DNA of 64,000 nucleotides from contig NZ_CP082284.1 in assembly GCF_019880225.1 (NCBI RefSeq), positions 1,178,001 to 1,242,000 on the forward strand, written 5' to 3'. Position 1 is the stretch's first letter; every line of letters starts with the position of its first letter. This document shows, one piece after another, positions 2,643 to 39,098 of the stretch. Under the pieces are notes generated by a model. That model was not told the origin of the DNA. It saw only the letters and a program-made list of their open reading frames with translations, and searched no databases. This stretch comes from Halobaculum rubrum (GTDB taxonomy: Archaea; Halobacteriota; Halobacteria; Halobacteriales; Haloferacaceae). The translations under genes and the position numbers were made by a program.

Positions 2643-5225
2643 ATGGCCGAGGCCGCCGCGAAGACCGAGTACGTCGATCATCCCCTGCTCGTCGAGGGGT
2701 TCATCGAGGACCGCCGCTACCAGACGGAGCTGGCGGCGACTGCCCGCGAGGGCCACACGCTCGTGTGCCTCCCGACCGGCCTCGGAAAGACGACCGTTTC
2801 GCTGCTCGTCACCGCCCACCGGCTGTACGAGACCGGGGGCAAGGCGCTGTTCCTGGCGCCGACGAAGCCGCTGGTGCAACAGCACGCCGACTTCTACCGC
2901 GAGGCGCTGGACATCGCCGACGAAGAGATCGTCGTGTTCACCGGGGAGGTCCGGCCCGACGACCGCGCCGAGCTGTGGGAGGGCGCGAGCGTCGTCATCG
3001 CCACGCCGCAGGTCGTCGAGAACGACCTCGTCGGCAACCGCATCTCGCTTTCGGACGTGACCCACCTGACGTTCGACGAGTGCCACCGCGCGAGCGGCGA
3101 CTACGCGTACGTCTACATCGCCGAGCGCTACCACGCCGACGCCGAGAAGCCGCTCGTCACCGGGATGTCCGCCTCGCCCGGCGGCGACCGCGAGGAGATC
3201 ACGGCGGTGTGTGAGAACCTCGGCATCGACCAGGTCGAGGTGATGACCGAGGACGACGCCGACGTGGGCGAGTACACCCACGACACCGACGTGCAGTGGG
3301 AGCGCATCGACCTCCCGGAGCCGATCGTCGAGATCCGCGACGCGCTCAACGAGGTGATCACCGACAGGCTGGAGAGCCTGAAGGAGTTGGGCGTCACGAA
3401 CACCACCCAGCCGGACGTCTCCCAGAAGGACCTCAACAGGATGCGCGGGGAGCTCCAGCGCATGATGGACGGCGGCGACTCCGACGCCTACACCGGGATG
3501 TCGGTGCACGCGGAGGTCATGAAGCTCCGGCGGGCGGTCGAACTCGTCGAGACACAGAGCGTCGAGGCGCTGCGCCGCTACTTCGAGCGCCAGCGCAACG
3601 CCGCGCGCTCGTCGGGCGCCTCGAAGGCGAGCCAGCGGATGGTCTCCGAGCCCAAGGTCAGAGAGGCGATGCGCAAGGCAGAGAGCTTCGACGACCTCCA
3701 CCCGAAGTTCCGGCGCACGCGGGTGCTGCTCGCGCAGACGCTCGGCATCGGCGGCGGCGAGCGCGTCATCGTGTTCACGGAGTCCAGGGACACCGCCGAG
3801 GCGCTGACGGAGTTCCTCTCGGCCTCCTTCGACACCCGACGATTCGTCGGGCAGGGCGACAAGGAGGGCTCCGACGGGATGACCCAGAAGCAACAACAGG
3901 AGACGCTCGACGCCTTCCGCGCCGGCGAGTTCGAGGTGCTCGTCTCCACCAGCGTCGCCGAGGAGGGGCTGGACGTGCCGGAGGTCGATCTGGTTCTCTT
4001 CTTCGAGCCGGTGCCGACCGCGATCCGCTCCATCCAGCGGAAGGGCCGGACCGGCCGGCAGGCGGAGGGCGAGGTGGTCGTCCTCCTCGCCAACGACACG
4101 CGCGACGAAGCCTTCTTCTGGATCTCGCGGCGGCGCGAGCAGGAGATGGAGGACGAGCTTCGGAAGCTGAAGGGCGTCGCCGACGAGTTGAGCGACGAAC
4201 TCGACGACGGACAGTCCGGGCTCGAGGAGTTCGACGGCGAGGCCGAGCGAAGCGAGGCCTCGAAAGGACGAGCGGGGAGTGAAACGACCCGCGAGACGGG
4301 CGAGGCCGATCGAAGCGCCGGCGGCGGAGGCGGCGCCGACGGCGACGAAGACGGCGATCCCGACTCCGCGACCGACTCGACGTCCGCGGCCGCCGCCACG
4401 AACGGCCAGCCCGGGTTGACCGACTTCGAGCCCGACGACGACTCGTCGGAGGCTGACGCCGACGGCGACACGACCGAGCGCGACGACGAGGCGACGGCGG
4501 ACGACCCAGGCGAGGACGAGGACGAATCCGACGCCGACGACGGCGTCGTCGCCGCCGCAGGCACCGACGCCGACGGCACCGAGATCGTCATCGACCAGCG
4601 CGAGCTCGAGTCGACCATCGCGCGCGACCTCTCCACCCGCGAGGGGATCACCACCCGGCTGGAGACGCTGGCGGTCGGCGACTACGTGCTCTCCGACCGC
4701 GTCGCCGTCGAGCGCAAGTCGGTCGCGGACTTCCTCGACACGCTCGTCGGCGGCGACCGCTCGATGTTCGAGCAGATCCGCGACACTGCGCGGGCGTACG
4801 CCCGGCCCGTCGTGATCATCGAGGGCGAGGACCTGTACGGCGAGCGCAACGTCCACCCGAACGCGGTCCGTGGCGCGTTGTCGTCGCTGGCGATCGACTT
4901 CGACGCGAGCGTCCTCCGGACCGAGGACGAGGCCGACACCGCCGACCTGCTGGAGGTGATCGCCCGACGCGAGCAGGAAGAGAACGACCGCGAGGTGTCC
5001 GCACACGGCGAGAAGGGCGCGAAGACGCTCGCCGAGCAACAGGAGTACGTCGTCTCGTCGATCGCCGACATCGGCCCGGTCACCTCGCGGGCGCTGCTGG
5101 AGCACTTCGACACCGTCGAGGCGGTGATGTGCGCCCGCGAGGAGGACCTGCTGGAGGTGTCCGGCGTCGGGCAGGTGACCGCCGAGCGCATCCGCGAGGT
5201 CGTCGGCAGCGACTATCCCAAATGA
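2643..5225 (+). CDS. hef: Hef helicase/nuclease for forked DNA (FANCM/XPF-like)
   Basis: An 860-residue protein with an N-terminal SF2 helicase and a C-terminal XPF-type nuclease, acting on stalled replication forks. Visible helicase motifs are PTGLGKT (Walker A, near residue 45), DECHRASG (motif II), SASPGG and, further on, FTESRDTAE and QRKGRTGRQ. An acidic low-complexity linker covers about residues 500-645. Then comes the ERCC4 nuclease with VERKSVADFLDTL near residue 690, followed by a helix-hairpin-helix pair at the end. The linker includes a palindromic insert near residues 533-545. An AT-rich box about 29 nt upstream suggests a nearly leaderless mRNA. Length and domain order match haloarchaeal Hef. 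Confidence 0.95.
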   Translation: MAEAAAKTEYVDHPLLVEGFIEDRRYQTELAATAREGHTLVCLPTGLGKTTVSLLVTAHRLYETGGKALFLAPTKPLVQQHADFYREALDIADEEIVVFTGEVRPDDRAELWEGASVVIATPQVVENDLVGNRISLSDVTHLTFDECHRASGDYAYVYIAERYHADAEKPLVTGMSASPGGDREEITAVCENLGIDQVEVMTEDDADVGEYTHDTDVQWERIDLPEPIVEIRDALNEVITDRLESLKELGVTNTTQPDVSQKDLNRMRGELQRMMDGGDSDAYTGMSVHAEVMKLRRAVELVETQSVEALRRYFERQRNAARSSGASKASQRMVSEPKVREAMRKAESFDDLHPKFRRTRVLLAQTLGIGGGERVIVFTESRDTAEALTEFLSASFDTRRFVGQGDKEGSDGMTQKQQQETLDAFRAGEFEVLVSTSVAEEGLDVPEVDLVLFFEPVPTAIRSIQRKGRTGRQAEGEVVVLLANDTRDEAFFWISRRREQEMEDELRKLKGVADELSDELDDGQSGLEEFDGEAERSEASKGRAGSETTRETGEADRSAGGGGGADGDEDGDPDSATDSTSAAAATNGQPGLTDFEPDDDSSEADADGDTTERDDEATADDPGEDEDESDADDGVVAAAGTDADGTEIVIDQRELESTIARDLSTREGITTRLETLAVGDYVLSDRVAVERKSVADFLDTLVGGDRSMFEQIRDTARAYARPVVIIEGEDLYGERNVHPNAVRGALSSLAIDFDASVLRTEDEADTADLLEVIARREQEENDREVSAHGEKGAKTLAEQQEYVVSSIADIGPVTSRALLEHFDTVEAVMCAREEDLLEVSGVGQVTAERIREVVGSDYPK
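4238..4262 (+). repeat. small palindrome inside the hef linker
   Basis: Seven-base arms (CGAGGCC / GGCCTCG) surround an 11-nt loop of the form gagcgaagcga. The palindrome lies in frame inside the disordered acidic linker of Hef and encodes residues reading AERSEAS. It belongs to the palindrome family described under the findings. Confidence 0.6.
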
Positions 5226-6133: not shown

Positions 6134-8329
6134 GTGTCGACGACGGACGGCTACCTGCGCTTCTTCCCGTACGACGAGCCGTATCCGAACCAGGAGGAGG
6201 CGATGGACCGGATCTCCAACTCGCTGGAGCGCGGGCAGGACGTGCTGTTCGAGGGCGCGCCCGGGACCGGAAAGACGCTCTCGGCGCTGGTGCCCGCGCT
6301 GCAGCACGCCCGCGATCACGACCGCACCGTCGTCATCACGACGAACGTCCACCAACAGATGCGACAGTTCGTCGAGGACGCCCGCGCGATCAACGAGACG
6401 GAGCCTATCCGCGCGACGGTGTTCAAGGGAAAGTCGTCGATGTGTCACATCGACGTGGACTACCAAGAGTGCCAGACGCTCCGAGACACCACGCGCTCGC
6501 TCGTCGAGGACCGGTCCGACAGAGAGCAGTTGGAGCAGCGGCTGGACGACCTCACCGACGAGATGCGCGAGGGCGCGGAGGGCACCGACGAGAGCGGCAG
6601 TGCCGGAAGCGCCGCCGAGGCCAGACAGGCCGTCCAAGAGGAGTTGGAGCGACTCGACGACGAGATCGACGACGAGGCCGCGAACACCTGCGACTACTAC
6701 CTCCAGAACCTCACCGGCGACACGGGCGAGTTCTTCTCGTGGCTGTTCGACGACGTTCGAACCCCCGACGAGGTGTACGAGTACGCCGGCAGCCGCGGCT
6801 TCTGTGGCTACGAGCTGCTGAAGGAGGGGATGGAGGAGGTCGAGCTGGTCGTCTGCAACTACCACCACCTGCTCGATCCCCAGATCAGAGAGCAGTTCTT
6901 CCGCTGGCTCGACCGCGACCCGCAGGACGTGATCACCGTCTTCGACGAGGCGCACAACGTCGAGGACGCCGCCCGCGATCACGCCTCGAAGGCGCTCACC
7001 GAGAACACGTTGGAGTCGGCACTCACCGAGTTGGAGGAGAGCGACGACTCCCGCGCCGAGCCCGCCGAGAACGTTCTCCGAGCGTTCATCGAGGCGCTGC
7101 GCGACACCTACGAGGACACCCTCGGCTTCGGCGCGCGCGAGGGGGTCGGCGAGAGCTGGGAGGACGTGAGCATCGCGAACGACGACCGCCGCGACGACCT
7201 CACGCTCGCGTTCCTGGAGCGCTACGAGGGGAGCGGGATCCGGGCTGAGTGCGACCTCGCGCTCCAGCTCGGCAAGCGCCTGGACGAGGAGTACGAGGAG
7301 GCGTACCGCGAGGGCGAGACCACCACCCGACGCGAGTGTCAGACCCTCCAGGCCGCCGCGTTCGTGTCGGCGTGGATGGACGGCGGCGGCGAGTTGGGCC
7401 AGCATCCGGTCGTCTCGGTGCGCCGCGACGCGGGCACCGACGAGGTGTACGGCCGCGCGGAGCTGTACACCTGCATCCCGCGGGAGGTGACCGCGGAGCT
7501 GTTCGACGAGGTGTACGCGAGCGTCCTCATGTCCGCGACCCTCCGACCGTTCGACGTGACCGAGGACGTGCTCGGCCTCTCGAACCCGGCGACGCTCGCG
7601 TACGGGCTGGCGTACCCCGAGGAGAACCGCCGGACCTTCTCGGTGGCGACGCCCGCGCTGTTCGCCTCCGAGCGCGACGACCCCGCCACCCAGGAGACGA
7701 TCGCGGCGACCCTGTCGGATGTCGTACGGTTCACGCCCGGCAACAGCCTGCTCTTCTTCCCGTCGTACGCCGAGGCCGAGCGCTACCACGAGCTCCTCTC
7801 GGGCGACCCGAACCTCGGCACGCTCCTGCTCGACGGCTCCGAGCCCGATACCGAGCAACTGCGTCGGCGGCTCGTCGACGGCGATAGCTCGACCCTGTTC
7901 ACGTCGCTGTGGGGCACCCTCGCGGAGGGCGTGAGCTTCGACGGCGACGACGCCCGGACGGTCGCGGTCGTCGGCGTGCCGTACCCGCACCTCTCCGAGC
8001 GGATGGAGGCGGTGCAGGACGCCTACGACCGCGCGTTCGCCGAGCGCTCGCGCGACGCCGGCTGGGAGTACGCCGTCGAGATCCCGACGGTCCGCAAGAC
8101 GCGACAGGCGCTCGGGCGGGTCATCCGCTCGCCGGACGACTTCGGCGTGCGCGCGCTGCTGGACAAGCGCTACACGTCCGCCGACATGGGGAAGTACTCC
8201 GTTCGCGACGCCTTCCCGCCGGAGGAGCGCGAGGAGCTGATCGACATCGGTTCCGAGAAGCTGAAGTTCGCGATGCTGAACTTCTTTACCGACCACGCGG
8301 CGTACGACGGGTCGCCGCCGGAGCCGTAG
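6134..8329 (+). CDS. XPD/Rad3-like ATP-dependent DNA helicase
   Basis: A 731-residue superfamily 2 helicase related to XPD, DinG and Rad3. Visible features are GAPGTGKTLSAL (Walker A, near residue 42), four cysteines between the A box and motif II (MCHID, YQECQ, NTCDYY, GFCGY) that should hold the 4Fe-4S cluster, VVCNYHHLLD, FDEAHNVED (DEAH box) and, near the end, QALGRVIRSPDDFGVRALLDKRY (motif VI). XPD-type helicases unwind 5'-to-3' in repair. The GTG at 6134 is used because the conserved FFPYDEPYPNQEEAM motif follows directly and an AT-containing box lies about 26 nt upstream. A long charged helical insert covers residues 125-185. Confidence 0.92.
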   Translation: MSTTDGYLRFFPYDEPYPNQEEAMDRISNSLERGQDVLFEGAPGTGKTLSALVPALQHARDHDRTVVITTNVHQQMRQFVEDARAINETEPIRATVFKGKSSMCHIDVDYQECQTLRDTTRSLVEDRSDREQLEQRLDDLTDEMREGAEGTDESGSAGSAAEARQAVQEELERLDDEIDDEAANTCDYYLQNLTGDTGEFFSWLFDDVRTPDEVYEYAGSRGFCGYELLKEGMEEVELVVCNYHHLLDPQIREQFFRWLDRDPQDVITVFDEAHNVEDAARDHASKALTENTLESALTELEESDDSRAEPAENVLRAFIEALRDTYEDTLGFGAREGVGESWEDVSIANDDRRDDLTLAFLERYEGSGIRAECDLALQLGKRLDEEYEEAYREGETTTRRECQTLQAAAFVSAWMDGGGELGQHPVVSVRRDAGTDEVYGRAELYTCIPREVTAELFDEVYASVLMSATLRPFDVTEDVLGLSNPATLAYGLAYPEENRRTFSVATPALFASERDDPATQETIAATLSDVVRFTPGNSLLFFPSYAEAERYHELLSGDPNLGTLLLDGSEPDTEQLRRRLVDGDSSTLFTSLWGTLAEGVSFDGDDARTVAVVGVPYPHLSERMEAVQDAYDRAFAERSRDAGWEYAVEIPTVRKTRQALGRVIRSPDDFGVRALLDKRYTSADMGKYSVRDAFPPEEREELIDIGSEKLKFAMLNFFTDHAAYDGSPPEP

Positions 8330-12608: not shown

Positions 12609-13660
12609 GGCGATCCCACGGGGTGGAGCCCCTGGAACTCCAGACCGGCCGTCTCCTCGAGCCCGAGCGCGACGTTGGCGGCGTGGACCGCCTGCCCCGC
12701 CGCGCCCTTCATCACGTTGTCGATGGCCGAGAACGCGACCACGCGGCCGTTCTCGGGGTCGAGTTCGAAGCCGACCTCGGCGTGGTTCGTCCCGGCCACG
12801 GCCTTCGGCTCGGGGTAGCGGTACACGCCGCCGCCGCCCGCGACGAGGCGGACGAACGGCTCGTCGTCGTACGCCTCGCGGTAGGCGCCCCACAGATCGC
12901 CCGTGGTGACGCGCTCGCTCGGGAAGGCGTGACACGTCGCCGCCGCCCCGCGGGTCATGTCGACCGCGTGGACGGTGAACGACAGCGAGAGGCCCAGCTC
13001 CTGCTTGATCTCCGCCTCGTGGCGGTGCCCCGTCGGCGCGTACGGGCGCACGACGCCCGAGCGCTCGGGGTGGCTGGAGGCGGCGCCGCCGCCGGCGCCC
13101 CCCTCCGAGGAGCCGACCTTCAGGTCGGCGACCACCTGATCGTCGGGCGTGATGACGCCCGAATCGACCAGCGGCTTCAGCGCCAGCATCGTCGCCGTCG
13201 CGTTGCAGCCGCCGGAGGCGATGAGGTCCGCGCCCTCGAGTTTCTCGCGCCCCAGCTCGGGGAGCGCGTAGGCGGCGTCCGCGAGGTGCTCGGGCGCGAC
13301 GTGGCCGTCGTACCACTCGTCGTAGTCCGCCTCCTCGCTGAGCCGGAAGTCCGCCGAGAGGTCGACCACGGTGCCCGCGGCGTCACGGAAGGCGTCGATA
13401 TGCTCCATCGAGACGCCGTGGGGCGTCGACGCGAACAGCACGTCCACCGAGTCCAGGTCATCGGGCGAGGAGAACCGCACGTCGACGCCGCGGAGGTTCG
13501 GGTGGACGTAGCCGAGCGTCTTGTTCTCGTACTCACGGCTGGTCGCCTGCACGAGTTCGAAGTTCGGATGCCCGGTCAGCAGGCGGCACAGCTCGCCGCC
13601 CGCGAAGCCGGAGGCGCCGACGACGGCGGCGGTGAGTGTCGCGTTCTCGCCCGCACTCAT
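12605..13660 (-). CDS. argC: [LysW]-glutamyl/aminoadipyl-phosphate reductase
   Basis: A 351-residue NADPH-dependent semialdehyde dehydrogenase of the ArgC/LysY family. VVGASGFAGGELCRLL near residue 13 is the Rossmann nucleotide loop, and IASGGCNATATML near residue 150 contains the catalytic cysteine. HAVDMTRGAAATCHAF near residue 230 is a typical late motif. The ATG overlaps the argX stop (ATGA). It reduces the acyl phosphate made by ArgB to the semialdehyde used by ArgD. Confidence 0.94.
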   Translation of the reverse strand: MSAGENATLTAAVVGASGFAGGELCRLLTGHPNFELVQATSREYENKTLGYVHPNLRGVDVRFSSPDDLDSVDVLFASTPHGVSMEHIDAFRDAAGTVVDLSADFRLSEEADYDEWYDGHVAPEHLADAAYALPELGREKLEGADLIASGGCNATATMLALKPLVDSGVITPDDQVVADLKVGSSEGGAGGGAASSHPERSGVVRPYAPTGHRHEAEIKQELGLSLSFTVHAVDMTRGAAATCHAFPSERVTTGDLWGAYREAYDDEPFVRLVAGGGGVYRYPEPKAVAGTNHAEVGFELDPENGRVVAFSAIDNVMKGAAGQAVHAANVALGLEETAGLEFQGLHPVGSP

Positions 13661-14586
13661 GCCGTCATCACGGCTTCGTTCGCCGCCTCCGCCTTCAGTT
13701 CGAGCCAGTCGACGACCGCCGCGGGCACGTCGACCTCGCTGGCCTCGTTCAGCGCCTTGAACTCGACGGTGTGGTTCACCTCGTGAACGGTGTACCTCGA
13801 CTCGCCGTCTCGCGGGTCGCTCCGCTCCCCGCTCGATTCCGAGGCGCTACGCGCCTCGCCCGTCTCCATCAGGTCGACGCCGAGCAGGCCGCCGCCGACG
13901 GCGTCGCTCGCCTTCCGCACCAGCTCCGTCGCCTCGTCGTCGAGATCGAAGGTGTCAGTCTCGCCGCCCTTCGCGGCGTTGGTGAGCCAGTGCTCGGAGG
14001 TACGCGTCATCGCGGCGACGGGCTCGCCGTCACACGCCAGCACGCGGATGTCGCGGCCGGGCTTGTCGACGTACTCCTGCACGTAGAACACCTTGTGCTC
14101 GTAGTGGCCGAGCGTCGCCTTGTGTTCGAGGATCGCCTCGGCGGCGTTCTCGGTGTCGAGCTTGGCCATCAGCCTGCCCCACGAGCCGACGACCGGCTTG
14201 ATCACGCACGGGTAGCCGAACTCCTCGATGGCCTCCATCGCGGCCTCCGTCGTGAACGCGACCTCGGTCGCCGGCGTCGGCACGCCCGCGCTCTCCAGCG
14301 CGAGGCTGTTCTTCACCTTGTCGGCGCAGACCGCCGCGGTCTCCGGACTGTTGATCACGGGGACGCCGTACGCCGAGAGGAGCCGCGTGGCGTACAGCGA
14401 GCGCGAGGTGGCGAGACAGCGGTCGATCACCAGATCGCAGTCGGCTATCTCGGCGGTCGTCTCGTTCAGGCCGAACCGCTGCTTGCGCACGTCGATCTTG
14501 GCGACCTCGTGGCCGCGGTCGCGAAGCTCCGACAGGAGGAGCTTCTCGTCTTTTCGGATCCGGGAGTAGAGCAGGCCGAGCTTCAT
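13657..14586 (-). CDS. argX: LysW-glutamate/aminoadipate ligase (ATP-grasp, LysX/ArgX)
   Basis: A 309-residue ATP-grasp/RimK-like ligase that joins the amino group of glutamate (or aminoadipate) to the C-terminal glutamate of LysW. MKLGLLYSRIRKDEKLLL opens the protein and fixes the start at 14586; the longer frame to 14679 is overlap with lysW. NSPETAAVCADKVKNSL, PCVIKPVVGSWGRL and VHEVNHTVEFK are family motifs. Between GVDLMETG and YTVHEVNH there are about 20 extra Arg/Ser/Glu-rich residues encoded by a GC-rich palindrome; other ligases of this family have only a short turn there. lysW ends 1 bp upstream. Confidence 0.92.
   Translation of the reverse strand: MKLGLLYSRIRKDEKLLLSELRDRGHEVAKIDVRKQRFGLNETTAEIADCDLVIDRCLATSRSLYATRLLSAYGVPVINSPETAAVCADKVKNSLALESAGVPTPATEVAFTTEAAMEAIEEFGYPCVIKPVVGSWGRLMAKLDTENAAEAILEHKATLGHYEHKVFYVQEYVDKPGRDIRVLACDGEPVAAMTRTSEHWLTNAAKGGETDTFDLDDEATELVRKASDAVGGGLLGVDLMETGEARSASESSGERSDPRDGESRYTVHEVNHTVEFKALNEASEVDVPAAVVDWLELKAEAANEAVMTA
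13800..13864 (-). repeat. palindromic element inserted in frame in argX
   Basis: The core 13840-13858 is CGAGGCGC, a 3-nt loop, then GCGCCTCG. Read on the coding strand it gives EARSASES and continues as an Arg/Ser/Asp stretch to about 13800. The core differs at one loop base from the copies in hemC (18932-18950) and in the argH-lysW gap (15113-15131), and it is read in the same frame as the hemC copy. Confidence 0.7.
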
Positions 14587-14587
14587 C

Positions 14588-14758
14588 TCACTCCCCCCAG
14601 TCCTCTTCGAGCTCCGGGGCTCGATCGAGGACCGGCGGGGAGACGTCGACGACCTCCAGCTCGGCGCCGCATGTTTCACAGTCGACGATCTCTCCGACCT
14701 CCAGGTCGTCGTGCAGGGCCACCGTTCCCCCGCACTCGACGCATTCGGATTCGGTCAT
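14588..14758 (-). CDS. lysW: LysW/ArgW amino-group carrier protein
   Basis: A 56-residue acidic zinc protein. It begins MTESECVECGG, has a second pair CETCGAE, and ends in EEDWGE. The EDWGE terminus is the hallmark of LysW/ArgW: the final glutamate is the attachment point for the amino acid during arginine/lysine synthesis, and the four cysteines hold a zinc. It is the first gene of the lysW-argX-argC-argB-argD-argE-argF series, with argX starting 1 bp after its stop. A TATA-like box (minus-strand ATTAAA, 14789-14794) lies about 33 nt upstream. Confidence 0.96.
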   Translation of the reverse strand: MTESECVECGGTVALHDDLEVGEIVDCETCGAELEVVDVSPPVLDRAPELEEDWGE

Positions 14759-14788
14759 GGCGTACTCATCTCTATCGGGGAAGACACC

Positions 14789-14819
14789 TTTAATCCGTCG
14801 ATTTTGTCAGCGAAAAATA
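14789..14819 (-). promoter_or_regulatory. lysW-arg operon promoter with possible operator
   Basis: On the minus strand ATTAAA (14789-14794) is a TATA-like box. Just upstream lies ATTTTTCGCTGACAAAAT (14801-14818), with ATTTT/AAAAT arms. The region upstream of argG has a similar layout with a TTTTC...ACAAA...TCGA sequence before its TATA box, so one regulator could serve both arginine units. Confidence 0.4.
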
Positions 14820-15186
14820 CTGTCGGAGTCGCCGCTATCGAGCGGGAGCGGGCGATTCGGCGCGGATCTCGAATCCGATGTTCGAAATCTGAGTAGTGTT
14901 GGCCCCGAGGGGGGCCGGCGGGGCCACCGCCGCCGGCGGTCGCGGGGCGGCGGCCGGGACCGGTCGAGGTCGGGTCCCCGGTCGCGGTCGGCCGCCCCGC
15001 GGTCGTCGCGGAACTCGGAGCGGTCGTGGATGTCGCGGAAGCCGGCCGCCCGCCGGAGCCGTCGCTCGCGGTCGGGCGAGCGGTCGTCTCGCGGCTTCGC
15101 CGCTCGACTGTCCGAGGCGCTCCGCGCCTCGCATTCGTCGGGTCGTCGGGCGTCCGGTCATGAGTGGACTCCAGGTCGGTCGGTGA
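14820..15186 (-). other. argH-lysW gap with a palindromic element and no clear gene
   Basis: This stretch separates the argGH and lysW units. A palindromic element occupies 15091-15132. Downstream of it a minus-strand frame without an ATG stays open for about 110 codons and is rich in Arg, Asp and Pro; it reads through the element in the same frame used in hemC. It may be a decayed coding end or an open frame created by GC bias. No family is recognised. Confidence 0.4.
15091..15132 (-). repeat. palindromic element, 32 nt identical to one in hemC
   Basis: Hairpin CGAGGCGC-TCC-GCGCCTCG at 15113-15131, next to a second small hairpin GCGGC-TTC-GCCGC at 15091-15103. The 32 bases 15101-15132 are the exact reverse complement of 18931-18962 inside hemC, so this is the same mobile or recombining unit in an intergenic position. 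Confidence 0.75.
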
Positions 15187-16698
15187 TCAGGTGTACGATT
15201 CGACCGCATCGGTCAAGTCCGTTTCGGCGGCCGCGAGCGCGTCGCGGCGGGCGTCGACGGCGGCCTCGTGGTCGTCGTACGTCTCGGTCATGCGCGCGAG
15301 GGAGGCGGCCACGGCGTCGGGCGCCGGGCCGCCCCGCGACGCGCGGGAGGCGACGCTCCCGACGGGGTCGAGCGCGGCCTCGAGGTCCTCGCGGCTCACG
15401 TGCTCGTAGAGGGACTCCCCAAGGACCTCCTGTGCGGCCGCGTCAAGATTTGCAGCGAGCGTCTCCGGGTCCGCGTCGTCGGGCACGGTCGCGGCCGCCT
15501 CGGCGACGACCTCGTGGGCCGTCCGGAACGGGATCCCCGCCGAGGCCAGCGCGTCCGCGACGCCCGTAGCCGTCGAGAAGCCCGCGCCCGCGTCGGCCGC
15601 GCACGCCGACTCGTCCCAGTCGCCGGTCGCGACCGCGCCGGCGACGACCTCGGTCGCCTCGGTCGCGTCGTCGACGGCGTCCCACGCGTGCGGCGTCGCG
15701 CGCTGAAGGTCGCGGTTGTACGCCCGCGGCAGCCCCTTCAGCGTCGTGAGCAGCCCGGTCAGGTCGCCGGATACGTCGCCCGCGACCGCGCGGACCAACT
15801 CCAGCGTGTCCGGGTTCACCTTCTGGGGCATGATCGACGAGGTGGACGCGTAGTCGTCCGAGGGGAGGAAGTAGCCGTCCGTGGCGTGCTCGATGAGGTC
15901 GGTCGAGAGCCCCGACAGCGTCGCCGTCAGGGTCGCCAGCGCGGCGGTCCCCTCCACGAGGAAGTCCCGCGCGGACGCGGCGTCGGTGGCGTTCTCGACG
16001 ACGCCGTCGAACCCGAGCAGGTCGGCCGTCCGCTCGCGGTCGATGTCGAAGGTGGTGCCGCCGAACGCCGCGCCGCCCAGCGGCGACTCGTTCGTCCGGT
16101 CGAACGCCGCGAGCAGCCGGGCGGTGTCGCGCTCGACCGCGCCCGCGTACGACGACAGGAAGTGTCCGACGGTGACGGGCTGGGCGTACTGCCGGTGGGT
16201 GAACCCCGGCATGACGGTGTCGGCGTGCTCGGCGGCCGCGTCCAGCAGCGCCTCGCGCAGGACGAGCGTCGCCTCGGCGGCGTCGAGCAGATCCTCGCGG
16301 TAGCGGCGGCGGATGCAGGCGGCGACCTCGTCGTTGCGCGAGCGCGCGGTGTGCATCTTCCCGCCGACCGGTCCGACCTCGGCGACGACCGCCGACTCGA
16401 TCGCCTCGTGCACGTCCTCGCCGTCGGGGAGCGCGCCGTGGCCCGCGTCCTCGACGGCCGCGAGCCCGGAGAGGATCTCGGCGGCCTCGTCGTCGCCGAC
16501 GATCCCCTGTTCGGCGAGCATCACCGTGTGCGCGCGGTCGACGGCGAGGTCGGCCGCGAAGATGCGCTCGTCGGCCGCGAGGCTCGACATGAAGCCGCGG
16601 GCCGGGCCCCCGGCGAAGCGGTCGCGCCGGACGACCGTCTCGGTGTCCGCGTCAGTATCGTCCGCGTCGTCGCCGCCGGCGCTCCCGTGGTCAGTCAT
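15187..16698 (-). CDS. argH: argininosuccinate lyase
   Basis: A 503-residue member of the fumarase/aspartase superfamily that splits argininosuccinate into arginine and fumarate. The signature TSSIMPQKVNPDTLE is near residue 290, with MHTARSRNDEVA near residue 105 and PGFTHRQYAQPVTVGHFL near residue 165. An acidic extension of about 20 residues precedes the conserved RRDRFAGGPA. The ATG at 16698 directly abuts the argG stop, so the two final steps of arginine synthesis form one unit. It is slightly longer than most bacterial ArgH because of acidic inserts. Confidence 0.96.
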   Translation of the reverse strand: MTDHGSAGGDDADDTDADTETVVRRDRFAGGPARGFMSSLAADERIFAADLAVDRAHTVMLAEQGIVGDDEAAEILSGLAAVEDAGHGALPDGEDVHEAIESAVVAEVGPVGGKMHTARSRNDEVAACIRRRYREDLLDAAEATLVLREALLDAAAEHADTVMPGFTHRQYAQPVTVGHFLSSYAGAVERDTARLLAAFDRTNESPLGGAAFGGTTFDIDRERTADLLGFDGVVENATDAASARDFLVEGTAALATLTATLSGLSTDLIEHATDGYFLPSDDYASTSSIMPQKVNPDTLELVRAVAGDVSGDLTGLLTTLKGLPRAYNRDLQRATPHAWDAVDDATEATEVVAGAVATGDWDESACAADAGAGFSTATGVADALASAGIPFRTAHEVVAEAAATVPDDADPETLAANLDAAAQEVLGESLYEHVSREDLEAALDPVGSVASRASRGGPAPDAVAASLARMTETYDDHEAAVDARRDALAAAETDLTDAVESYT

Positions 16699-17991
16699 CT
16701 ATTCGTCTGCCTCGCCGCTCCCGTCGGCTGCCAGCGTCTCCCCGCCCTCGCCGGTCTTCACGTTCTCGAGGACCTCGTTCGCGAGGCGCTCCTGGAAGCC
16801 GTGGTACTTCGCGACGCCCGTCGCGTCGGCCTGCTCGATGCCGTCGACCGTCTCCGTGTTGAACGAGGCGGCCGACTCGGAGTAGACGCCGTACTCGGAG
16901 TCGCGTGCGACGGGGCGGCACTGGCCGCCCTGCAGCTTGACGGTGACCGTGCCGGTGACCTTCTCCTGGCCGGCGTCGAGGTAGCCCTCCAGGGAGTTCA
17001 CGAGCGGGGAGTTCACGAGGCCCTTGTACCCCTGCTGGGCCCACTGGTCGTCGATCTGTTGCTTGAAGTCGCGCTCGGACTTCGTGAACACGAGTTGTTC
17101 GAGCGCCTCGTGGGCCGTCAGGAGGACGGTCGCCGCGGGGTGCTCGTAGTTCTCGCGCACCTTCAGGCCGAGCATGCGGTCCTCCATCATGTCCGTGCGG
17201 CCGACGCCGTACGCGCCCGCGATCTCGTTCAGCTCCTCGATGAGCTCGACGGAGTCGACCGCCTCCCCGTTCTCGGCCGACAGCCGAGAGCCAGTCGAGG
17301 TCTCCTCGACGATGTTCAGCGTCACCGGGTAGCCCATCTCGAAGCCGATCTCCACCAGCTCCTCGCCCTCCGCGTCGCCGGGCGTCGTCGTCCAGTCGTA
17401 GATGTCCTCCGGCGGGACGTACGTCGGGTCCTCGAGGTCGTCGCCCTCGACCGAGCGCGACCAGAGGTTCGTGTCGATCGACCACGCGCCCTCGTTGCCG
17501 CCCTCGACGGGGAGGTCCTTCTCGTCGGCGTACTCGATCTCCCACTCGCGGGTGAGGCCGAGCTCGCGCACGGGCGCGATGACCTCCTTGTCGGAGCCGC
17601 GCCACACCGTCTCGAAGCGCAGTTGGTCGTTCCCCTTGCCCGTGCAGCCGTGGGCGAGGGCGTCGCAGTCGTGTTCCTCGGCGACGCCGAGGATGGCTTC
17701 CGCGATCACCGGACGCGCGAGCGCCGTCCCGAGCGGGTAGCCCTGATACGTCGCGTTCGCGCGCACGGAGTCGAAACACAGCTCCGCGAACTCGGTCTTC
17801 GCGTCGACGACGTAGTGCTCCAGATCGAGCGCCTCGGCGGTCTCCTCGGCCTCGTCGAACTCCTCGGCGGGCTGGCCCACGTCGACGGTGACGCCGACGA
17901 CCTCGTCGTAGCCGTACTCCTCCTCGAGGAGCGGGACGCAGACGGTCGTGTCGAGTCCACCGCTGAATGCGAGCGCAACGCGTTTCGTCAT
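16699..17991 (-). CDS. argG: argininosuccinate synthase
   Basis: A 430-residue ATP-dependent ligase joining citrulline and aspartate. The N-terminal PP-loop motif ALAFSGGLDTTVCV is at residues 6-19, followed by HGCTGKGNDQLRFE near residue 115 and VGRTDMMEDRMLGLKVRE near residue 265. The C-terminal 20 residues are acidic and nonconserved. The ATG at 17991 is preceded by a TATA-like box 28 nt upstream, giving a short leader. argH follows without a gap. Confidence 0.96.
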   Translation of the reverse strand: MTKRVALAFSGGLDTTVCVPLLEEEYGYDEVVGVTVDVGQPAEEFDEAEETAEALDLEHYVVDAKTEFAELCFDSVRANATYQGYPLGTALARPVIAEAILGVAEEHDCDALAHGCTGKGNDQLRFETVWRGSDKEVIAPVRELGLTREWEIEYADEKDLPVEGGNEGAWSIDTNLWSRSVEGDDLEDPTYVPPEDIYDWTTTPGDAEGEELVEIGFEMGYPVTLNIVEETSTGSRLSAENGEAVDSVELIEELNEIAGAYGVGRTDMMEDRMLGLKVRENYEHPAATVLLTAHEALEQLVFTKSERDFKQQIDDQWAQQGYKGLVNSPLVNSLEGYLDAGQEKVTGTVTVKLQGGQCRPVARDSEYGVYSESAASFNTETVDGIEQADATGVAKYHGFQERLANEVLENVKTGEGGETLAADGSGEADE

Positions 17992-18016
17992 ATCTCACGC
18001 TCGCACGCCGACGCCC

Positions 18017-18046
18017 ATAAATTCGACGTTTGTAAACTTTGAAAAT
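18017..18046 (-). promoter_or_regulatory. argG promoter with possible operator
   Basis: The minus strand carries ATTTAT (18017-18022) as TATA-like box, preceded by TTTTCAAAGTTTACAAACG (18028-18046). GTTTACAAAC has GTTT/AAAC arms. The spacing of ACAAA, TCGA and the TATA box resembles that upstream of lysW. Confidence 0.4.
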
Positions 18047-18050
18047 TAAT

Positions 18051-18371
18051 CGCGGACTGCACGCTACCCGGAGAAAGGCGAGCGGATCGAGTCGATGAGA
18101 AGTGGTGTTGATGGGCCTAGCGGCCCGGTCGTCGCGGCGCGGGGACTCGGCTCCGAGCCGCGGCACCGCGGACGCGTCGCTCGAATGAGGCGCGAACGTG
18201 AGCGACGGCGTCCGCTGTCATACGCGAAGCTACACCCTCGATCGGTAAAAACGGTACCGGTCCGGCGAAGGTTGCGACGGTGCCGAACAGGGAGCGACTG
18301 TGCACCGGTGCCGTATCCCGCCGTATCGGCGAAGCGAACCCGTTTTCCCCGGCGGCGACGGAGTTTCGGGC
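18051..18371. other. argG-hemC divergent gap
   Basis: The gap holds the argG promoter on its left, a small hairpin CGGCT-CCG-AGCCG at 18148-18160, and on the right a TTTTCC box (18343-18348) about 27 nt before the hemC ATG. No convincing gene is seen between them. Confidence 0.45.
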
Positions 18372-19613
18372 ATGACAACCGGGACGCTGCGGCTCGCAAC
18401 CCGCGGCTCCGACCTCGCGCTCCGACAGGCGGCCGGCGTCCGAGACGAGCTCTCGACGCGCCGCCGCGACGTGGAGCTGGTCGAGGTCGAGACGCGCGGC
18501 GACCGACTCGACGAGGATCTCATCACCGAACTCGGCCGCACCGGCGCGTTCGTTCGCGCGCTCGACGAGGAGGTGCTGTCGGGCGAGGTCGACGCCGCGG
18601 TCCACTCGTTGAAGGACATGCCCACCGACATGCCCGACGGCCTCGTCGTTGCCGCCGTCGGCGAGCGCGCCCCCGCCGGCGACGCGCTCGTCACTCGCGA
18701 GGGCGGCGACCTCGCTGACCTCCCGCGCGGCTCGGTCGTCGGCACCTCCTCGCTGCGGCGGAAGGCGCAGGTGCTCGCCGAGCGCCCCGACCTGGAGGTG
18801 CGCCCCCTCCGCGGCAACGTCGACACGCGGCTCCAGAAGCTGATCGCGCCCGCGCTTCAGGCCGAGCACGAGCGCCGCGTCGAGGCCGAGGCCGACCACA
18901 AGGGGGATCCCGGCGCACGCGAGGAGGATAGCGAGGCGCGGAGCGCCTCGGACAGTCGAGCGACGGAGTCGTCCGAGACGGCGAAGCCGTCTCGTGATGA
19001 CGGAAGCCGCGACGCGGCTTCCGAACCATCGCGAGACCGCGAGTACGAACGCACCGTCGAGGAGTGGTTCGACGACCGCACCGAGTTCCAGCGCGCCGCG
19101 TTGGAACACGAGGTCGACCACGAGTACGACGCCATCGTGCTGGCGGAGGCCGGCCTGCGTCGCTCGGATCTGTTCTACCGCGACGAGTACGAGGTCGAGC
19201 GCCTCGACCGCGCGGACCACGTCCCCGCGCCCGGCCAGGGCGCCGTCGCCGTCACCGCGAGCGACCCCGACGTGATCGACGCGATCCGGTCGGCGATGGA
19301 CCACGAGCCGACCCGCGTCGCCACCAGCGTCGAGCGCACGATCCTCGCCGAGTTGGGCGGCGGCTGTATCGCCCCGATCGGCGTCAACGCGCTCGTCCAG
19401 GGCGAGCACGTCAGCGCCCGCGTTCGGGTGCTGTCGGCCGACGGCGACACCGAGGTGAAGGCGAACCGCGACCTCCCGCTGCGTACCTACCGCGAGGGCG
19501 CCGCCGAGTTCGCCGGGTCGCTGCGCGATCAGGGCGCCGCCGAACTCATCGAGGCCGCGAAGCGCGCCGCGGACACGGAGACCGCGAAACGCGTCGAGGA
19601 GGGTGACGAGTAG
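18372..19613 (+). CDS. hemC: hydroxymethylbilane synthase (porphobilinogen deaminase)
   Basis: A 413-residue enzyme that joins four porphobilinogens into hydroxymethylbilane. It opens with LRLATRGSDLALRQA, has VHSLKDMPTDMPDG near residue 80 and GTSSLRRKAQVL near residue 125. LGGGCIAPIGVNA near residue 335 contains the cysteine that should hold the dipyrromethane cofactor. Between NVDTRLQKL and EYDAIVLAEAG there are about 100 residues, against roughly 10 in bacterial HemC; part is a haloarchaeal insertion, and about 30 residues come from three tandem palindromes. The ATG at 18372 fits the conserved start and a leaderless promoter. It heads hemC-sumT-hemD. Confidence 0.95.
   Translation: MTTGTLRLATRGSDLALRQAAGVRDELSTRRRDVELVEVETRGDRLDEDLITELGRTGAFVRALDEEVLSGEVDAAVHSLKDMPTDMPDGLVVAAVGERAPAGDALVTREGGDLADLPRGSVVGTSSLRRKAQVLAERPDLEVRPLRGNVDTRLQKLIAPALQAEHERRVEAEADHKGDPGAREEDSEARSASDSRATESSETAKPSRDDGSRDAASEPSRDREYERTVEEWFDDRTEFQRAALEHEVDHEYDAIVLAEAGLRRSDLFYRDEYEVERLDRADHVPAPGQGAVAVTASDPDVIDAIRSAMDHEPTRVATSVERTILAELGGGCIAPIGVNALVQGEHVSARVRVLSADGDTEVKANRDLPLRTYREGAAEFAGSLRDQGAAELIEAAKRAADTETAKRVEEGDE
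18931..19023 (+). repeat. three tandem palindromes inserted in hemC
   Basis: CGAGGCGC-GGA-GCGCCTCG (18932-18950), CGAGACGGC-GAA-GCCGTCTCG (18974-18994) and CGGAAGCCGC-GAC-GCGGCTTCCG (19001-19023). Each has an 8-10 bp perfect stem and a 3-nt loop beginning with G. All are read in frame and encode Ser/Arg/Glu/Ala-rich sequence inside the haloarchaeal insertion of HemC. The first 32 nt recur exactly at 15101-15132 in inverted orientation. Confidence 0.8.
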
Positions 19614-20468
19614 ATGAGCGACGAGCGCGACGCGACCCGCGACCGCGACGGCATCGACCGCGACGGCGGCTTCGTCTCGCTGGTCGGCTCGGGCCCCGGC
19701 GACCCCGAACTGCTCACGGTGAAGGCACGCCGCCGACTCGATGAGGCGGACGTGGTGCTGCACGACAAGCTCCCCGGCCCCGAGATCCTCGGATCCATCT
19801 CCGAGGACAAACGCGAGGACGTGGGCAAGCGCGCCGGCGGCGAGCGCACCAGTCAGGAGTACACGAACGACCGGCTCGTCGAACTCGCGGAGGCCGGTGA
19901 GCACGTGGTCCGCCTGAAAGGCGGCGACCCGTTCGTCTTCGGACGCGGCGGCGAGGAGGCCGAACACCTCGCCGCCAACGGCGTCCCGTTCGAGGTCGTC
20001 CCGGGCGTCACCTCCCCCATCGCCGCGCCGGGCGTCGCGGGCGTCCCCGTGACCCACCGGGACCACGCCTCCTCCGTCTCGTTCGTCACGGGCCACGAGG
20101 ACCCGACAAAGGACGAATCCGTGGTGGACTGGGCGGCGCTCGCGGCCACCGGCGGCACCATCGTCGTCCTGATGGGCGTCGGGAAGCTGCCGCTGTACAC
20201 CGCCGAACTGCTCGACGCCGGGATGGACCCCGCTACGCCCGTGGCGCTCGTCGAGCGCGGCACCTGGCCCGACATGCGCGTCGCGACCGGCACGCTCGCC
20301 GACATCGTCGACGTGCGTGACGAGGCGGGGATCGAGCCGCCCGCGATCACCGTGATCGGTGAAGTCGCCGGCGCTCGCGAGCGAGTGGTCGAGTTCCTGC
20401 GCGGACGCGGCGACGCGGCCGCGACCGTCGACACAGCGACCACAGCCCGCACGGAGGAGGACGAATGA
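19614..20468 (+). CDS. cobA: uroporphyrinogen-III C-methyltransferase
   Basis: A 284-residue SAM-dependent methyltransferase (SUMT) converting uroporphyrinogen III to precorrin-2, the branch point to siroheme, cobalamin and the archaeal siroheme-dependent heme route. Motifs are VSLVGSGPGDPELLTVKA near residue 22, VRLKGGDPFVFGRGGEE near residue 100 and VPGVTSPIAAPGVAGVPVTHR near residue 125. An acidic 18-residue extension precedes the core. It starts directly after the hemC stop and overlaps the hemD ATG (ATGA). Confidence 0.94.
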   Translation: MSDERDATRDRDGIDRDGGFVSLVGSGPGDPELLTVKARRRLDEADVVLHDKLPGPEILGSISEDKREDVGKRAGGERTSQEYTNDRLVELAEAGEHVVRLKGGDPFVFGRGGEEAEHLAANGVPFEVVPGVTSPIAAPGVAGVPVTHRDHASSVSFVTGHEDPTKDESVVDWAALAATGGTIVVLMGVGKLPLYTAELLDAGMDPATPVALVERGTWPDMRVATGTLADIVDVRDEAGIEPPAITVIGEVAGARERVVEFLRGRGDAAATVDTATTARTEEDE

Positions 20469-37793: not shown

Positions 37794-39098
37794 ATGACCG
37801 ACGACGCCGACGCGCCGACGGGCGAGTGGGGCGCGCGGACGCGGGCGCTCCACACCGGCTGGACCGGCGATCCGGCGACCGGCGCTCGGGCGCCGCCCAT
37901 CTACCAGACGACATCCTACTCGTTCCCCGACGCCGACACCGCGGCCGACCTGTACGCCCTCGAGCGCGAGGGCGACGTGTACTCCCGTATTTCCAACCCC
38001 ACGACGCGGGTGTTGGAGAAGCGGCTCGCGGACCTGGAGGGCGGCGTCGACGCCGTCGCCACCGCCTCGGGAATGGCCGCCATCGACACGGCGACCAGTC
38101 TGCTCGCGCGCGCCGGCGACAACGTCGTCGCCAGCGCCGACATGTACGGCGGCACGAGCACCTATCTCGCACATATGGCTTCCCGGCGCGGCGTCGACCT
38201 TCGGACCGTCGACACCGCCGACTACGCGGCCTACGAGGAGGCCGTCGACGATGACACCGCGTTCGTCCACGTCGAGACGGTGGCGAACCCGTCGCTCGTG
38301 ACGCCCGACTTCGAACGGGTCGCCGAGATCGCCCACGAGCACGCGGTCCCGCTGGTCGTCGACAACACCTTCGGAACCCCCGTGCTGTGCAACCCCATCG
38401 ACCACGGCGCCGACGTGGTGTGGAACTCCACCACCAAGTGGATCCACGGAGCGGGAACCACCGTCGGCGGCGTCCTCGTCGACGGCGGCACCTTCCCGTG
38501 GGACCACCCGGACGCCGATTATCCCGAACTGTCGGGAGAGAACGCCGCCTTCGGCGTCGACTTCTCGGAACACTTCGGCGAGCGTGCGTTCACGCAGGTC
38601 GCGCGCCACCGCGGCGTCCGCACGCTCGGCAATCCCCAGTCTCCCTTCGACGCCTGGCAGACACTTCAGGGCCTCTCGACGCTCCCCGTCCGCATGGAGA
38701 AACACTGCGAGAACGCCCGGATCGTCGCCGAGCACCTCCGCGACCACCCCGAGGTCGCGTGGGTTACCTACCCCGGGTTCGCGGATCACCCGACTCACGA
38801 GACCGCCGCCGAGTATCTCGACGACTTCGGCGGCATGGTCGTGTTCGGGCTCGCGGACGGCTTCGCCGCCGGGAAACGCCTGTGTGAGGAGGTGGAACTC
38901 ATCTCGTTTCTCGCGAACATCGGCGACGCCCGCTCGCTGCTCATTCACCCGGCGAGCACGACCCACGCACAGCTCACCGAGGCGGAACAGGCGGCTGCGG
39001 GCGTGAGCCCGGACCTGCTGCGCCTGTCGGTCGGGATCGAGGACCCCGCGGACATCGTGACCGACCTCGACCGCGCCATCGCGGAGGCGACGCGATGA
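37794..39098 (+). CDS. metY: O-acetylhomoserine sulfhydrylase / cystathionine gamma-synthase family, copy 1
   Basis: A 434-residue Cys/Met-metabolism PLP enzyme. [20 protein letters not shown] near residue 40, [16 protein letters not shown] near residue 90, [33 protein letters not shown] near residue 190 with the PLP lysine (TKW), and [10 protein letters not shown] near residue 385. It most likely makes homocysteine from O-acetylhomoserine and sulfide. Its stop overlaps the metX ATG (ATGA), so acetylation and sulfhydrylation are coupled. A paralogue of equal length follows metX. Confidence 0.9.

Follow-up and report, generated by a model that had tools for sequence, protein, structure and literature searches.

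A short palindromic DNA repeat family of Halobacteria that lies in frame inside protein genes and is probably mobile

Halobacteria appear to carry short palindromic DNA repeats that form a non-autonomous, mobile family and insert in frame into genes, a reading to which we give a probability of about 0.85. Comparison of sequences supports this reading through the family itself, its single reading frame, the empty sites in relatives, the covariation within the hairpins, the decay of copies and their recurrence at the same loops. The basic unit of about 48-57 bp consists of two tandem hairpins with GNA triloops: hairpin 1 (CGAGGCGC-GNA-GCGCCTCG) is followed by a short linker ending in TCGAG or CGAG, by hairpin 2 (GCGGx..x'CCGC), which varies in stem and length, and by GAGAC. 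In DNA, GNA loops of the d(GCGAAGC) type show unusual stability. The window, by which we mean the whole stretch of 64,000 nucleotides of Halobaculum rubrum DNA that was analysed, contains the following units and genes (bit scores are for R1, the covariance model described below):

15085-15132, minus strand: complete two-hairpin unit in the argH-lysW gap, containing 15101-15132 (R1 74.2 bits)
15113-15131, minus strand: hairpin 1 of the gap unit; its hairpin 2 is GCGGC-GAA-GCCGC, minus strand
15187-16698, minus strand: argH, upstream flank of the gap unit
14588-14758, minus strand: lysW, downstream flank of the gap unit
18372-19613, plus strand: hemC (porphobilinogen deaminase), host gene; an open reading frame whose orthologue has porphobilinogen deaminases as its PDB relatives
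18927-19034, plus strand: in-frame insert of 108 nt in hemC, from a single-gap alignment with the empty orthologue of genome G008
18931-18980, plus strand: hemC unit, inside the 108-nt insert and containing 18931-18962
18974-18994 and 19001-19023, plus strand: two further hairpins after the hemC unit
13657-14586, minus strand: lysX, host gene; an open reading frame matching TIGR02144 (LysX_arch) with 282 bits, its start codon being our choice
13806-13859, minus strand: third unit, in frame in lysX with the peptide EARSASESSGERSDPRD, absent from the initial annotation (R1 63.8 bits)
4237-4298, plus strand: probable fourth unit, a variant with a longer tip on hairpin 1, in frame in a long open reading frame (R1 38.7 bits, E 7e-6 in the window)

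Read in the sense direction the gap unit is GCGAGGCGCGGAGCGCCTCGGACAGTCGAGCGGCGAAGCCGCGAGACG, and a GNA triloop closes both of its hairpins. The length of the hemC insert is also 108 nt in an alignment with G001, and the insert region corresponds to residues 160-214 of the empty orthologue, which have no counterpart in the best-matching solved porphobilinogen deaminase; a HemC structure prediction (mean pLDDT 42.5, from an 11-sequence alignment) was left unused. Folding of the DNA gave z-scores of -2.3 (gap unit), -4.8 (hemC insert) and -1.0 (lysX unit), the last not significant. An Rfam search of window positions 13000-20000 gave one sub-threshold match only, away from the units, and a known RNA family was rejected as their identity for lack of an Rfam match. 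A direct repeat of about 29 nt at window positions 39045 and 41768 is unrelated to the hairpin units.

As the initial annotation had stated, 15101-15132 is the exact reverse complement of 18931-18962; we confirmed this letter by letter, and the match of 32 nt, which cannot be extended at either end, forms the larger part of the longer two-hairpin unit at both sites. It is the longest inverted repeat of the window, and since the longest in 20 dinucleotide-preserving shuffles of the window reached 16-23 nt, a chance match is ruled out. An assembly artefact is ruled out as well, because the sister genome G009 holds decayed copies at both places, at the same codon of hemC and at the same position in the argH-lysW gap. 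The window's genome (two contigs, 3.06 Mb) contains exactly two copies of the 32-mer when the loop base is left free, one on each strand. The initial annotation was right that the unit is palindromic and that copying is involved. Its further proposal, that the gap and hemC exchanged this sequence by recent direct copying or gene conversion, or that the inverted copies could support inversion of the argGH segment, agrees with an exact identity within 3.8 kb and with three strong units lying within about 5 kb of one another, but we regard it as highly improbable. The exact 32-mer is also present in another genus, in a Halovenus MAG (L093), which makes direct exchange unneeded, and it occurs with a change only at the free loop base in five genomes of other genera. 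Compared over 50 nt, the gap unit has 2 differences from the units in this MAG and in a Haloarculaceae genome (L139), against 10 from the hemC unit, and the two window units differ immediately outside the 32 nt. Because the strand and relative order of argH and lysW are unchanged across all 11 genus genomes, an inversion of argGH finds no support, and no inversion polymorphism is seen across these genomes.

Eight of the ten congeners lack the gap unit, G009 has it in decayed form, and in G010 only hairpin 1 is present. The lone hairpin of G010 (L323, about 941-965) has its loop in the opposite sense (TTC, or GAA when the complementary strand is read), as though the palindrome had undergone a flip or an insertion in reverse orientation. 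A small open reading frame in the gap (14835-15209, minus strand) would make the gap copy coding; we rejected it because this sole conserved frame is broken in two genomes, G002 and G004, and the argH-lysW gap thus appears to be noncoding.

The covariance model was built on seven copies from the window's genome, and its E-values are rough. It finds 21 matches in that genome at E<=0.01 and matches in 10 of the 11 genus genomes (0 to 21 each), although weak R1 matches may be due to chance. Across the class, 138 of 391 Halobacteria genomes, from 41 of 86 genera, contain the 21-nt hairpin core CGAGGCGCGNAGCGCCTCGGA. The reversed pattern, used as a control, has no match in the same 391 genomes, and on this ground, together with the shorter inverted repeats of the shuffles, pure chance was rejected. 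A longer pattern searched in 84,980 species' genomes found 101 stretches, and all 80 of those listed are haloarchaeal. Carriage by viruses was rejected because a search of viral_contigs gave no match to the unit. At one locus (L164, around 6854-6886) two consecutive units lie in one gene (EREARSAS...EREARSAP), which suggests a tandem or nested insertion.

Empty sites were sought within the genus using the protein flanks of the units as queries, and the orthologous DNA was then compared. Of the 21 matches at E<=0.01 in the window's genome, ten entered this flank search, and the hemC and gap units were examined separately. Eleven clean in-frame insertion sites have empty orthologues in the genus, with housekeeping genes among the hosts (names are from NCBIfam, and "dioxygenase-like" is our own label for a gene with no NCBIfam match):

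hemC: filled in 2 of 11 genomes (shorter and decayed in G009), empty in 9
rad3-like helicase gene: filled in G000 and G001, degraded at full length in G009, a remnant in G010, empty in 7
lysX: filled in 2 of 11 (G000 and G009), empty in 9
threonine synthase gene: filled in 4, empty in 7 (G010 with two extra residues)
acetate-CoA-ligase-like gene: filled in 4, empty in 7
leuS: filled in 3 (degraded in G009), empty in 8
trpA: filled in 1, empty in 10
topA: filled in 2, eight extra residues in G010, empty in 8
dioxygenase-like gene: filled in 1, empty in 8 of the 8 relatives fetched (without G004 and G009)
glyS, first site: filled in 1, empty in 10
glyS, second site: filled in G005, degraded in G001 and G009, empty in 8, including the window's genome

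The site in an Lhr-type helicase gene is too variable among the genus genomes to define an insert. Clean inserts are mostly 45-63 nt long and composites 98-117 nt. In addition to that of hemC, single-gap inserts are those of the rad3-like and dioxygenase-like genes (51 nt each), of lysX (48 nt) and of glyS in G005 against G007 (57 nt). For trpA the alignment gave 98 nt on account of an adjacent one-base gap, and the insert measures 33 codons when the proteins are aligned. The inserts of hemC and the rad3-like gene have a GAC/GAY triplet on both sides, which is not so at all sites. Because presence and absence are compared between species, losses could be included among these cases. At the second glyS site, G005 (L304) and its near relative G007 (L303) differ by a fresh unit of 57 nt with another stem type (AARSAARSS), and this is the best pair for an analysis of junctions.

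The units in genes are read on one strand and in one frame, as (S/G)EARSAS(E/D)..SG..PRD. We scored the flanks of the 80 listed loci (of 101) in six frames with a codon model trained on nine gene stretches of the window. Both flanks were clearly coding and in agreement at 58 of the 80 loci, and all 58 had the unit in the EARSAS(E/D) sense frame; the remaining 22 fell outside the thresholds of the codon model. Without thresholds, the EARSAS frame scored best at 78 of 80, whereas among 1897 positions drawn at random from these loci every one of the six frames was best in 16-18% of cases. The share called coding was 58 of 80 for units versus 39% for random positions, and the EARSAS frame was open for at least 150 codons at 78 of 80 versus 44%. 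The listed loci are not 80 independent events, because about 35 of them form 12 groups with host and position in common (one member, L106, is possibly misgrouped). Stops do not explain the choice of frame, since only one of 24 readings (four units, six frames each) contains a stop codon. The peptide of the EARSAS frame is hydrophilic with a charge of +1 to -2, and most other frames give basic or more hydrophobic peptides. In the second unit of topA, the 5' arm starts in a different frame.

The uniform frame, and the recurrence of the peptide in unrelated proteins at the same loops, would also be expected if EARSAS..SG..PRD were a useful protein linker under selection and the palindrome a by-product. 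We consider this very improbable. A degenerate peptide pattern gave 81 matches in 59 genomes of the class; 43 of them encode EARSAS, and 38 of these 43 do so with the exact palindromic codons. Therefore the DNA, rather than the peptide, is what is conserved, and on this codon test we rejected peptide-level selection as the sole cause. Moreover, the peptide has been lost from shared copies (leuS and the rad3-like gene of G009), and one copy lies in noncoding DNA. The pairing within hairpin 2 points the same way. The search pattern had left the 3' side of hairpin 2 free, and the closing arm was missing in 4 of 74 distinct units; of the other 70, 60 have a Watson-Crick match at the inner pair beside GCGG/CCGC, whereas 2000 re-pairings gave 21 on average and never more than 35.

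Copies also appear at different stages of decay. The palindrome is degraded in the G009 copies of hemC, leuS and the rad3-like gene, and the lysX copy carries an arm change. At some loops, units recur in separate genera. The flanks of the trpA unit in the window's genome are 98% and 96% identical to those of the empty gene of G008, and 79-85% (left) and 72-79% (right) identical to those of four Halorubrum species in which this loop also holds a unit. Similarly, in Salinigranum and Halolamina a unit sits at the matching place of the dioxygenase-like gene, and eight of eight congeners fetched are empty. The simplest reading of these alignments is that the trpA and dioxygenase-like loops gained units independently in other genera, although repeated loss would be a less simple alternative.

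Taken together, we propose that copies insert between the codons of protein genes, in the sense direction and in the one EARSAS frame. Each insertion would add a short hydrophilic loop, and the host enzymes presumably are still active, as we assume from the open frames in glyS, leuS and topA; afterwards the palindrome would decay through point changes and deletions. The unit may move or be copied as a folded single strand, because the stem keeps its pairing rather than its letters. Selection probably sets most of the frame and place, with in-frame copies surviving where the loop is harmless, because the peptide of the EARSAS frame alone is hydrophilic and not strongly basic, and so could be tolerated in a loop. 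That the fixed sense strand, the fixed frame and the reuse of identical codons in separate genera reflect targeting besides selection is doubtful; in such a case the hairpin would be copied into transcribed genes via single-stranded sense DNA or RNA, with a codon-phased acidic target (GAC-GGC-GAG), and this would be a class-wide mobile hairpin that builds protein loops.

The palindromes might instead arise, or be perfected, locally by template switching at quasi-palindromes, with no dispersal of a unit. This would fit stems that vary with both arms changed together, and also the excess of hairpins in 464 kb of the window's genome, where those with a GNA loop and arms of at least 8 number 13 against 1.8 in shuffles and those with other triloops 36 against 21. 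Local folding alone does not account for clean inserts of a common unit of about 50 nt with a shared linker and hairpin 2, and the shared cores are present at the insert junctions. We therefore judge template switching quite unlikely as the source of the family, but it may well shape the stems during or after copying of the dispersed unit.

A serious rival for the origin of the family comes from the PATEs of Haloquadratum walsbyi, the nearest haloarchaeal elements among those described in the parts of the literature cited here. The PATEs and SMRs of this species are linked to IS605 ends or said to carry terminal inverted repeats (PMC3119063). The unit could be a terminal-only derivative of an IS200/IS605-type element of this kind, moved in trans by a Y1 transposase. 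PATEs have near-terminal palindromes and are as short as 52 bp in the account cited (PMC3119063), close to the length and two-hairpin plan of the unit, and like PATEs and SMRs the unit is haloarchaeal, short, palindromic and free of a transposase. However, Y1_Tnp is found in 6 of the 11 genus genomes and is absent from G009, which has 16 unit matches, and from G008, which has 8; it does not track the copy number of the unit, and a Y1 transposase was rejected as a simple driver. R1 reached at best 22.9 bits over 26 IS605-type loci, and near the IS605-type genes of G000 the hairpins differ in their stems and mostly have loops of four bases. PATEs are reported to lack target duplication, whereas a triplet is repeated here at some sites; and the source describes no fixed coding frame for PATEs or SMRs, such as the unit has. 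On balance we hold a PATE origin to be unlikely. Near IS605-type genes there are also tandem hairpins with GNA loops on either strand and quite different stems (L342 1271-1311, in G009 near a tnpB match, and L339 2075-2123). The hairpin plan may be wider than the modelled family.

In its manner of insertion the family resembles the Rickettsia palindromic elements, or RPEs (Ogata 2000, 2002), which the passages cited describe as palindromic repeats of about 150 bp in ten families, placed in frame inside unrelated genes, each with a conserved peptide, and with arms that lose identity over time (PMC10969869, PMC6649704, PMC3733652). The haloarchaeal unit is likewise palindromic DNA that forms stable hairpins, lies in frame in functionally unrelated genes whose orthologues in relatives are empty (11 sites) and loses its palindromic identity with age. 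Unlike RPEs, it is only about 50 bp long with two tandem GNA-loop hairpins, and it is archaeal, class-wide and recurrent at the same loops in separate genera. By analogy it would work like RPEs, but we do not file it as one, the comparison being of descriptions and not of sequences. REPs, the sequences that go with RAYT transposases, are defined as extragenic (PMC12306157); they are also short multicopy palindromes, possibly tied to Y1 transposases (PMC12306157, PMC3733652). The present units are instead mostly intragenic and in frame (58 of 80 listed loci coding). Perfect inverted repeats within coding sequence are described from Nematomorpha mitochondria (PMC6649704). According to that description they are much longer and their arms are maintained, while the present unit is dispersed, inserts and then decays.

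No earlier report of such units in haloarchaeal genes was found in the open-access literature searched, and the cited passages regard in-frame invasion of genes by palindromes at such a scale as peculiar to Rickettsia. The present family, a shorter archaeal counterpart found across a class, offers many pairs of empty and filled species and genetically tractable hosts in the class, and therefore movement, choice of frame and harmlessness of the loop become directly testable. The unit also accounts for a recurrent odd peptide in haloarchaeal proteins, a peptide that can disturb alignments and annotation.

A separate observation concerns the region upstream of lysW. At about 14835-14945 of the window (minus strand), two GC-rich hairpins are followed by CAGATTTCGAACAYCGSATTCGAGATCCGCGCCGA. 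This stretch has no Rfam match. All 11 genus genomes have it in almost the same letters, whereas the remainder of the gap is variable, and its appearance suggests a conserved leader or a regulatory element of the lysW operon.
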